Positions 2,647 through 4,575 of a stretch of 64,000 nucleotides of DNA are shown here, in pieces. This DNA comes from Pseudoxanthomonas sp. GM95 (GTDB taxonomy: Bacteria > Pseudomonadota > Gammaproteobacteria > Xanthomonadales > Xanthomonadaceae): NCBI RefSeq assembly GCF_900109775.1, contig NZ_FOAX01000001.1, positions 248,001 through 312,000 of the forward strand, read 5' to 3'. A program made the translations under genes and the position numbers. The notes below the pieces were generated by a model. That model was not told the origin of the DNA. It searched no databases and worked only from the letters and a program-made list of their open reading frames with translations. Position 1 is the stretch's first letter. Each line of letters begins with the position of its first letter.

Positions 2647-2916
2647 TCAGCCGATCAGCTGCGGGATGCGCTGGAACAGGTCGATGGTGAAGCTGGTCAG
2701 CCGCCCCAGCAGGAAGTTGCCGGCCACCGCCAAGGTCGCCACCAGGGTCAGCGCCTTGACCACGAAAGCGATGGTCGGCTCGTTGATCTGGGTGGCCGCC
2801 TGCAGGATGCCCACCACCACGCCGATCACCAGCACCGCCAGCAACGGCGGCGCGCCCAGGACCAGGGCGATCTCCAGCCCACGGGAAATTTCGGTCATGG
2901 CGGTTTCGGGGGTCAT
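2647..2916 (-). CDS. fliQ: FliQ, flagellar export gate membrane protein
   Basis: FliQ is a small two-helix subunit of the FliPQR gate. The open frame extends further upstream, but the extension runs into a GC-rich repeat and is not FliQ-like. The ATG at 2916 gives 89 residues, the usual FliQ length, beginning MTPETAMTEISRGLEIAL. A second ATG six codons in (2898) is possible. Two hydrophobic helices flank the conserved loop ILQAATQINEPTIAFVVKA. Unlike in most genomes, fliQ is separated from fliP by about 790 bp carrying a plus-strand nuclease-like gene and two palindromic repeats, so it may need its own promoter or read-through. Confidence 0.95.
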   Translation of the reverse strand: MTPETAMTEISRGLEIALVLGAPPLLAVLVIGVVVGILQAATQINEPTIAFVVKALTLVATLAVAGNFLLGRLTSFTIDLFQRIPQLIG

Positions 2917-3020: not shown

Positions 3021-3148
3021 TAACCTCTCCCCAGCCCTCCCCTTGGCCTGCGGCTAAAGGGAGGGGGTCAAAACGGTGCACCATCAGGTCGCAGGATCCG
3101 CTCCCTCCCTTGCGAAGCAGGGGAGGGCTGGGGAGGGGTTGGCTTTTC
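3021..3148. repeat. Palindromic GC-rich repeat, copy A (fliQ side of the DUF559 gene)
   Basis: A roughly 128-bp imperfect palindrome. The outer arms 3022-3042 and 3120-3140 are complementary at 20 of 21 positions. Each half contains its own smaller stem (CCCTCCCCTT with AAAGGGAGGG on the left; CTCCCTCCCTT with GGGGAGGG on the right). The central part (TGCACCATCAGGTCGCAGGA) resembles the centre of copy B (GCGCACCATCGGATCGCGAA), so A and B are homologous in direct orientation. The structure resembles paired REP/BIME units or a small non-autonomous element. Confidence 0.8.
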
Positions 3149-3198
3149 CGCCTTTCCGCCCAGCGCTAGTCTGGCGATCAGTCATAGGGGAGCCAGGC

Positions 3199-3540
3199 AT
3201 GGATGCCTTACGCCATCGCGCACGCACGCTGCGCAACGCGCCCACCGACGCCGAGCATCGCCTCTGGCAACGCTTGCGCGGCGGACAGCTGGCAGGCGTC
3301 AAGTTCCGCCGTCAGATGCCGATTGCCGGCTTCATTGCGGATTTCGCCGCGCCTTCCGCACGGTTGATCGTGGAGCTGGACGGCGGCCAGCATGGCGAAC
3401 AAATCGAAGCCGATGCGAGGCGGACGGCTGCATTGAATGCAGCGGGTTATCGTGTCGTGCGTTACTGGAATCACGACGTCCTTCAGCGAACCGAGATGGT
3501 GCTGGAGAACATCCTGCGGGCGTTGGGGAAGGTGGACTAG
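3199..3540 (+). CDS. DUF559-domain protein, PD-(D/E)XK-like endonuclease fold
   Basis: A 113-residue single-domain protein of the DUF559 group, related to Vsr-like very-short-patch endonucleases. Visible hallmarks are the N-terminal helix LRNAPTDAEHRLWQRLRGGQ, the core FRRQMPIAGFIADFAAPSAR with Asp48, and VELDGGQH with Glu59, Asp61 and His65, followed by AGYRVVRYWNHDVL. These are the expected acidic residues of a PD-(D/E)XK active site. An AGGGGAG ribosome site precedes the ATG. It lies alone on the plus strand inside the minus-strand flagellar operon, bracketed by two homologous palindromes (3021-3148 and 3565-3693). Its biological role is unknown; a role in moving the flanking repeats is only an inference. 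Confidence 0.9.
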   Translation: MDALRHRARTLRNAPTDAEHRLWQRLRGGQLAGVKFRRQMPIAGFIADFAAPSARLIVELDGGQHGEQIEADARRTAALNAAGYRVVRYWNHDVLQRTEMVLENILRALGKVD

Positions 3541-3564
3541 GGCGAAAGTGCCAAGCGCAGAAGC

Positions 3565-3693
3565 TAACCCCACCCCGGCCCTCCCCTTCGCTGCGCGAAA
3601 GGGAGGGAGCCAAAAGCAGCGCACCATCGGATCGCGAATTCTGCTCCCTCCCTTGCGTGCGCAGCACGGAGGGGAGGGCCGGGGAGGGGGTGG
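3565..3693. repeat. Palindromic GC-rich repeat, copy B (fliP side of the DUF559 gene)
   Basis: The partner of copy A, about 129 bp. Its left arm CCACCCCGGCCCTCCCC (3570-3586) pairs with GGGGAGGGCCGGGG and the following bases on the right (3671-3693). Internal stems formed by CCCTCCCCTTCG/CGAAAGGGAGGG and CTCCCTCCC/GGAGGGGAGGG match copy A in layout. It ends 9 bases from the fliP stop codon, so on the minus strand it would fold in the fliP mRNA 3' end and could act as a terminator or attenuator between fliP and fliQ. Confidence 0.8.
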
Positions 3694-3702
3694 CCTTTGC
3701 CG

Positions 3703-4575
3703 TCAGAACGGATTGAAGCTCGACGCCAGCGAACCCACCACCAGCACCCAGCCGTCGACCAGCACGAACAGCAGGATCTTGAACGGGGCGGAGATCAGCA
3801 TCGGCGAGAGCATCATCATGCCCATCGACATCAGCACGCTGGCCACCACCAGGTCGATGATCACGAACGGGATGTAGATCAGGAAGGCGATCTCGAACGC
3901 GGTCTTCAGCTCGCTGGTCAGGAAGGACGCAGCCAACACGCCGAACGGCACGTCCTGCGGATTGGCGTACGGCCCGGTGTGGGACAGGCTGGCGAAGGTC
4001 ATCAGATCGTTCTGGCGTACCTGGGCCAGCATGAAGCCGCGGAACGGATCGATCGCCGCCGCCCAGGCGGTCTTGAAGTCCATCGTCTTGTCCAGGTACG
4101 GCGCAATGCCGTGCGCCCAGGAGGCGTCGAACACCGGCGTCATCACCATGAAGGTCAGGAACAGCGCCAGCGCCAGCAGCACCTGGTTGGACGGGGTCTG
4201 GCCGGTGCCGAGCGCCTGCCGCAGCAGGCCCAGCACGATGATGATGCGGGTGAAGGCCGTCATGCCCAGCAGCGCGGCCGGCAGCAGCGTGATGCTGGTC
4301 ATCAGCAGTAGCACCTGCAGCGGCATGCTGACCTTCTCGCCGCCGACCTGGCCGACGTTCAACTGCGGCAGCGTCTGCCCGGCCAGGTCGCTGACCGTGG
4401 GCAGGTTGTTCTGCGCCGGCGCGGCGGCCGGGGAGGGTGCCTGGGCCTGCGGCGCGGCCGGGGCGGCGGCCTGTTGTGCGAAAGCACCGCCAGCCAGCGG
4501 CAGGGCGATGCTCAGCAGCAGGACGACCAGCAGGCGGATCAGGCGGGAGCGTGACAACAGACGCGAACGGCTCAT
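3703..4575 (-). CDS. fliP: FliP, flagellar export gate protein
   Basis: FliP forms the ring at the heart of the flagellar export gate. The 290-residue precursor starts with a cleavable-looking hydrophobic leader ending near GGAFAQQ, then an Ala/Pro/Gln-rich stretch. The FliP core follows: LLMTSITLLPAALLGMTAF, RIIIVLGLLRQALGTGQTPS and the C-terminal LLVLVDGW-like helix pair. The ATG overlaps the fliO stop (ATGA). The next flagellar gene, fliQ, is displaced by the palindrome-flanked DUF559 insert. Confidence 0.97.
   Translation of the reverse strand: MSRSRLLSRSRLIRLLVVLLLSIALPLAGGAFAQQAAAPAAPQAQAPSPAAAPAQNNLPTVSDLAGQTLPQLNVGQVGGEKVSMPLQVLLLMTSITLLPAALLGMTAFTRIIIVLGLLRQALGTGQTPSNQVLLALALFLTFMVMTPVFDASWAHGIAPYLDKTMDFKTAWAAAIDPFRGFMLAQVRQNDLMTFASLSHTGPYANPQDVPFGVLAASFLTSELKTAFEIAFLIYIPFVIIDLVVASVLMSMGMMMLSPMLISAPFKILLFVLVDGWVLVVGSLASSFNPF

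Follow-up and report, generated by a model that had tools for sequence, protein, structure and literature searches.

DUF559 nuclease genes and inverted REP-like palindromes as a linked, candidate mobile system in Pseudoxanthomonas

A stretch of 64,000 nucleotides (nt) from Pseudoxanthomonas sp. GM95 (contig NZ_FOAX01000001.1, positions 248,001 to 312,000; hereafter the window) carries, between the flagellar genes fliP and fliQ, a gene for a DUF559 protein that is bounded by palindromes resembling repetitive extragenic palindromic (REP) elements. In this genus, DUF559 genes and their cognate REPs very probably form one linked system. The unit has inverted ends, enzyme clades match repeats both in kind and in copy number, and repeat doublets turn over from one close genome to another; a single gene shows the unit in full, empty and partial states, and the protein has a restriction-type fold with conserved catalytic-type residues. 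We also consider it fairly probable that the DUF559 nuclease mobilises its REPs, similar to REP-associated tyrosine transposases (RAYTs) and REP doublets forming hairpins (REPINs) but with an unrelated enzyme; REP recognition, cleavage and nuclease-driven turnover are what we infer here.

The initial annotation had placed a plus-strand DUF559 gene between fliP and fliQ, and this was confirmed: the gene lies on the strand opposite to both flagellar genes, and its product matched the PF04480 profile with an E value of 1e-38 (132 bits; cut-off, 20.6). Counting the spacer, the two flanking doublets are identical in 102 of 132 aligned columns. Either doublet forms a single long hairpin when folded (-83.0 and -96.7 kcal/mol). 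The arm pattern, allowing up to 3 mismatches, matched six times in the window, versus a mean of 0.10 in shuffled sequences; four of the matches (0 to 1 mismatch) lie inside the doublets and two weaker ones elsewhere. The doublets had been described as direct copies, each abutting a flagellar gene. As whole doublets they are direct, but the two single elements beside the gene are inverted, with their tails geneward, and only the right doublet, which ends 9 nt from the fliP stop codon, is close to its neighbour, whereas 104 nt separate the left one from the start codon of fliQ. Reading both strands of the two doublets by eye revealed neither GTAG nor CGTC tags. The source genome (4.69 Mb in 9 contigs) has this single DUF559 gene, and the arm occurs at three further places. 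Rfam matches of the palindromes were to microRNA families, far under gathering scores, and were dismissed as chance. In many type A elements, the repeat type of the window, a recurrent CGAAGTCGCGGCTAGCGACTGA-like module takes the place of part of the tail (loci L189, L190, L196, L198, L205, L211 and L212; also L003 and L006).

Is this arrangement typical of DUF559 genes? In the genus set, 82 of 85 PF04480 matches could be located (L185 to L187 were missed by the script and dropped), and 81 were used for the flank and tail tests. Inverted flanking repeats, scored as an inverted match at an alignment score of 40, were present at 66/81 of these genes but at 0/478 sham positions, which were other positions in the same loci, mostly coding DNA. 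Among named loci, chosen as close relatives of the window gene (five of them, L009, L010, L011, L023 and L044, belong to genomes that the genus set likewise includes), the figures were 19/34 versus 5/1785, and among the phylum loci, which are the 30 best scoring rather than a random sample, 14/30 versus 2/187. An association of DUF559 genes elsewhere with palindromes, on which the initial annotation had let its idea depend, was thus found far above the level of sham positions. Direct flank matches were also frequent (27/81, 13/34 and 15/30 in genus, named and phylum loci, respectively), since several elements may lie in the same flank. Moreover, a hairpin with a stem score of at least 9 was found within 150 nt upstream of 67/82 DUF559 genes of the genus, versus 3/39 other genes in the same loci; at a score of at least 8, the ratios were 28/35 versus 15/99 for named relatives and 19/30 versus 3/16 for phylum loci. 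The hairpin is followed by a G-rich tail. Among 69 upstream hairpins, the tail points geneward in 56 and away in 2; among 68 downstream ones, the figures are 58 and 8, respectively. Both tails point inward at 40/81 genes of the genus. The inverted-repeat test replaced an earlier bilateral-repeat test (27/93 at a score of at least 50, versus 1.7% of random pairs), which had mixed direct and inverted matches; in that test, 5/34 loci had a sham scoring at least 50.

The initial annotation had also suggested a check of whether palindrome and DUF559 genes co-occur, and clades and repeats were found to match in kind as well as in genome copy number. Seventeen DUF559 clades were defined from protein identity alone, and repeat types follow them: the matches were 7/8 for type A, 8/9 for type N, 9/9 and 4/4 for type K, 12/13, 7/7 and 4/5 for type H, and 4/5 for type P, with some types common to several clades. 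Since some clades occupy one conserved site, this matching could reflect plain inheritance; clade A genes are found at fliP-fliQ, ahead of a gene whose product begins MKILVTGGGGFLG and in at least one further place. Copies of types A, N and H were then counted in all 38 genus genomes, and reversed-pattern controls gave zero. Type A copies were present in 6/8 genomes with a clade A gene versus 2/30 without (area under the curve [AUC], 0.85; P = 2.7e-5), and the copy numbers of type N (AUC, 0.95; P = 4.7e-5) and type H (AUC, 0.97; P = 7.9e-7) followed their matching clades as well. Non-matching combinations among A, N and H gave AUCs of 0.28 to 0.56, and the K clade against H copies gave 0.73 (P = 0.043). 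With all copies within 600 nt of a DUF559 gene removed, type A remained in 5/8 versus 2/30 genomes (Fisher P = 0.002; AUC, 0.79), and the AUCs were 0.93 for N and 0.94 for H. Phylogenetic generalized least squares under Brownian motion, with a tree of 27 genomes built from fliQ and fliR, gave P values of 0.042 (A), 0.0014 (N) and 1e-5 (H).

The repeats are also gained or lost between close genomes. Genome G035 has 45 matches to the type A arm, and thirty loci were fetched. The comparison with the close genome G034 listed 23 repeat clusters, not counting fliP-fliQ and L200/L201, and 11 clusters had a comparable G034 stretch; L206/L207, where the flanks aligned around a different middle sequence, was not counted. 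At five of the 11, the repeats are also present in G034 (L191, L196, L205, L215 and L217), at four they are absent (L189, L195, L204 and L216), and at two (L190 and L198/L199) the one or two doublets of G035 correspond to a lone hairpin in G034. At L215, where both genomes have repeats, almost no sequence separates the two genes in G000 and G033.

In four genomes of the genus, a DUF559 gene with inverted K repeats lies in frame within a Mur-ligase-like gene; in one such unit (L180), the terminal inverted arms are 58 nt long and 90% complementary. Among the best 120 of 6575 Mur-ligase homologues, 47 carry DUF559 and 73 do not, and the inserts fall in the same alignment gap. The 73 comprise 2 shortened forms (P0039 retains the DUF559 end, and P0041 consists of a doublet whose spacer is short), 13 with a remnant and 58 counted as empty, two of which (P0065 and P0067) are proteins truncated at the site. 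The remnant counts vary with the pattern used: a looser one found repeat-derived residues in 26/73. Thus, the comparison of empty and filled sites proposed in the initial annotation turned up filled, empty and partial states at one site. On a FastTree tree of the hosts, built with the insert columns removed, the full/not-full character needs at least 29 changes, 19 of them forced by starred branches; shuffles needed 37.5 on average, and 1/500 was as low. Insert and host identities were correlated (Spearman, 0.74; 0/500 permutations as high), with outliers: P0034 and P0032 paired with P0021, P0023 and P0027 have host identities of 0.65 to 0.67 and insert identities of 0.80 to 0.87, and P0014 with P0007 has 0.91 for the host and 0.68 for the insert. 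In P0111, P0115 and P0117, the peptides at the site resemble translations of another REP type, which suggests that different repeat families may insert there.

A fold search with a structural model of the window protein returned the restriction-type fold seen in the homing endonuclease I-Bth0305I (PDB 3r3p), the closest distant fold, and in Vsr. The window protein shares fold and catalytic-type residues with the Vsr/EDxHD nuclease superfamily. Asp48, Glu59 and Asp61, which the initial annotation had called intact, are indeed all present and are invariant in 28 aligned homologues. A Pfam search of the window protein matched DUF559 and, below threshold, MTES_1575 only, with no match to a tyrosine (HUH) transposase. 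PF04480 matches were found in 34/38 genus genomes (85 matches) and 145/398 phylum genomes, and the closest named relatives are in Pseudoxanthomonas spadix and P. winnipegensis. Eight clades are under purifying selection, with median dN/dS values of 0.11 to 0.21 (0.21 in the window clade). Carriage by phages or plasmids was discarded as an explanation, with matches in just 42/72,556 plasmid and 2/50,697 phage records, and so was a role in defence, for which the sole PADLOC match was weak (DpdF; E value, 4e-4). At L145, L165 and L070, the DUF559 frame is open into the following gene, which resembles lysS, giving frames of 518, 611 and 482 amino acids.

FliQ was detected in 27/38 genus genomes, and the fliP-fliQ junction was measured between the aligned gene ends. 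It is 13 to 19 nt long in 14/27, so that the short junction sought in relatives exists; that the two genes are adjacent in most genomes holds for these 14, whereas the remaining 13 junctions contain longer sequence. Four contain the DUF559 insert, and these are the genomes with the most similar FliQ, the window genome included. Eight contain 107 to 160 nt of other, by eye palindrome-like sequence of several different families (L110 to L112, L114, L115, L117, L121 and L124), which suggests that fliP-fliQ is a hotspot for palindromic inserts, and in one the two genes are separated by an 838-nt stretch dominated by a 7-nt tandem repeat. The G001 junction (L108, about 640 to 1510) holds a very long tandem array of the 7-nt unit CCCCAAT, and tandem hexamer-like (GCAACN)n runs lie between DUF559 and the downstream repeat at L106, L107 and L011. 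The DUF559 proteins of the three other insert genomes are 86, 85 and 75% identical to the window copy, whereas FliQ is 96, 90 and 90% and FliR 95, 93 and 95% identical; in these three comparisons at one site, DUF559 changes faster than its neighbours. From the sequence comparison, the insert looks like a derived state common to four species. The gene is common to the four closest genomes and apparently vertical, and the window copy is therefore a resident of the fliP-fliQ junction in these close species. By splitting the operon, it may uncouple fliQR-flhBA from fliLMNOP, as the initial annotation suggested. The neighbours matched the FliP, FliQ, FliR and FlhB families; coordinates are given in Table 1.

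Table 1. Features of the fliP-fliQ junction in the window (positions within the 64,000-nt stretch)
Feature	Position	Strand	Basis or remark
DUF559 gene, 113 amino acids, Vsr-like nuclease	3199..3540	+	PF04480, structural model, fold search; presumed start codon at 3199
Left palindromic doublet: two inverted type A REP-like hairpins plus spacer	3021..3141		homologous to right doublet
REP-like element 1, tail toward fliQ	3021..3070	-	read from sequence; bounds approximate
REP-like element 2, hairpin then G-rich tail toward DUF559	3099..3141	+	bounds approximate
Right palindromic doublet	3565..3693		hairpin folding and arm-pattern matches
REP-like element 3, tail toward DUF559	3565..3610	-	read from sequence; bounds approximate
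REP-like element 4, tail toward fliP	3643..3693	+	read from sequence; bounds approximate
fliQ, one side of junction	2647..2916	-	PF01313, E value 6.8e-21
fliP, opposite side of junction	3703..4575	-	PF00813, E value 1.3e-73

Outside the genus, E. coli YcjD, also a DUF559 protein, is 45% identical to the window protein over 111 amino acids. Downstream of ycjD there is a hairpin followed by a GGGTGAGGGG tail, and a 56-nt query containing it was found in 5357/5426 E. coli genomes at a median of 14 places per genome. This dispersed repeat is probably the one named box C. The sapF-fabI interval differs among E. coli strains, with ycjD in K-12 and an RND/MFS efflux operon in a strain of sequence type 131 (L283 and L287); presence and absence of ycjD as a clean cassette excision was therefore ruled out. 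An empty allele was not found in Azospirillum, where seven records matched over 99 to 100% of the stretch.

RAYT genes are described as flanked by inverted REPs, as co-evolving with them, as evolving fast and as correlating with REP abundance (PMC2817692). The DUF559 units resemble the RAYT/REP/REPIN system (PMC2817692, PMC3116915) in the gene between inverted REPs, the clade-repeat matching, the fast-changing gene, the copy number tracking the gene and the gene-free inverted REP doublets. However, the enzyme here is a DUF559 nuclease and not an HUH tyrosine transposase of the IS200 type, and the window repeats are free of GTAG tags, their tails being G-rich. They also differ from REPs with a CGTC tag; the latter are described as having no dedicated transposase, and untagged REP families are mentioned as well (PMC3733652). 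Terminal inverted repeats, as in L180, are a trait of insertion sequences, and present and absent alleles at a conserved site, as in the Mur ligase, are one of homing endonuclease genes; unlike I-Bth0305I, there is no intron or intein here, but a unit bounded by inverted REPs. Rpn/transposase_31 proteins are likewise nucleases, proposed to act in DNA mobilisation, but belong to a different family (PMC5350276, PMC10327210). A link between DUF559 and palindromes was not found in literature titles and the starts of abstracts, a search that left bioRxiv and most subscription papers outside, and within the same scope no paper linking Vsr or very short patch repair to palindromes was among the results listed.

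The compact unit is REP-nuclease-REP, i.e., a DUF559 gene between inverted REP-like hairpins, and the same REPs also exist without the gene, as doublets and singlets across the genome. If the nuclease mobilises its REPs, this enzyme, similar to Vsr and I-Bth0305I, would recognise its own type of REP by the hairpin and the G-rich tail, cutting there or nearby; repair of the cut would copy or move doublets and, less often, the cassette with the gene, and a single-hairpin scar would remain after loss. The initial annotation had likened the locus to REPs moved by a dedicated nuclease: the association, the match in clade and copy number and the filled, empty and partial states bear this out, while movement by the nuclease is the part we infer.

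Several observations weigh against mobilisation by DUF559 or limit the link itself. Cleavage or movement by the enzyme was not observed, no target-site duplication was seen by eye at the sites compared, and no clean pair of empty and filled cassette sites was found at the DNA level. The repeat patterns were written after the flanks had been read, whereas the protein clades came from the protein alone. Flanks of different loci, paired at random, gave inverted matches in 18, 7.5 and 8% of cases, since repeats are common to many loci. A typed repeat is missing at 13/82 genes, including all of clades 7, 15 and 10. No PF04480 match accompanies the 72 general and 18 type N hairpins of genome G006 or the 35 general hairpins of G021 (94% complete); a clade A gene occurs in G004 and G025 with no strict type A match elsewhere, and in G010 and G030 there are type A matches but clade A genes are missing. 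In E. coli, a sapF-ycjD-fabI query (at least 80% of its length) was found in only 3363/5426 genomes, so the repeat, abundant also where ycjD is absent, can persist without the gene. The correlation of insert and host identities at the Mur-ligase site points to descent with repeated loss. Finally, occupation of the same site in relatives with vertical descent, named beforehand as contrary to the idea, holds in part, the insert being common to the four closest genomes.

Other explanations were considered. If the REPs were a landing site, a homing-type DUF559 nuclease would target a REP spread by something else, and the gene would persist only where targets exist. The closest distant fold, a homing endonuclease, would fit, as would the patchy Mur-ligase insert with its forced changes, the outlier pairs in which the insert is more alike than the host or the reverse, and the repeats of G006. 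However, a pre-existing target should be common without the gene, and few or no copies of types A and H are present without their matching clade (A in the 2/30 genomes noted above; H, median of 1 in 18 genomes); also, empty Mur-ligase alleles often have no REP. We regard a landing site as unlikely. The main functional rival is a host enzyme of Vsr-like mismatch repair, with the palindromes as terminators or passengers. Caulobacter VsrA, whose fold is similar and which also has a DUF559 domain, is a proposed very-short-patch repair enzyme for T/G mismatches in a methylated motif, and flanking palindromes are unmentioned in the part of its account available (PMC12907096). Mismatch repair leaves unexplained the clade-specific repeat types, their inverted arrangement, the copy-number match and the REP-bounded units within a gene, and we judge it quite unlikely.

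DUF559 might instead keep REPs harmless by processing their hairpins or cruciforms, with REP-rich genomes retaining the matching enzyme. This would account for the copy-number match with causation reversed and for purifying selection, but alone it explains neither the place of the gene inside the repeats nor their joint movement in one gene, and it appears improbable. Most improbable of all, the REPs would be moved in trans by RAYT or IS200-type tyrosine transposases, with DUF559 incidental. Y1_Tnp matches are present in 14/15 genomes examined (42 matches), but none of the 20 loci fetched from these 42 (about 1.5 kb on each side, 3.3 kb in total) had a type A or general hairpin, G034 has ten type A arms without a Y1_Tnp match, and the window doublets have neither tag. 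A RAYT as the mobiliser is thus unsupported.

REP-like palindromes are common bacterial repeats, and a mobiliser is known for only some of them. We judge as likely as not the broader proposal that DUF559 proteins are dedicated mobilisers of the widespread proteobacterial REPs with a hairpin and a G-rich tail, the ycjD repeat included, and so constitute a second REP-mobilising system, unrelated to RAYTs, in which a nuclease with a restriction fold drives the copying and excision of doublets. If this is true, a small, common and little-studied nuclease family would gain a function, orphan repeat families would gain a candidate enzyme, and the presence of an in-frame nuclease with palindromes inside a housekeeping-type gene would be explained. 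The RAYT strategy would then have had a second origin, with an unrelated catalytic fold.
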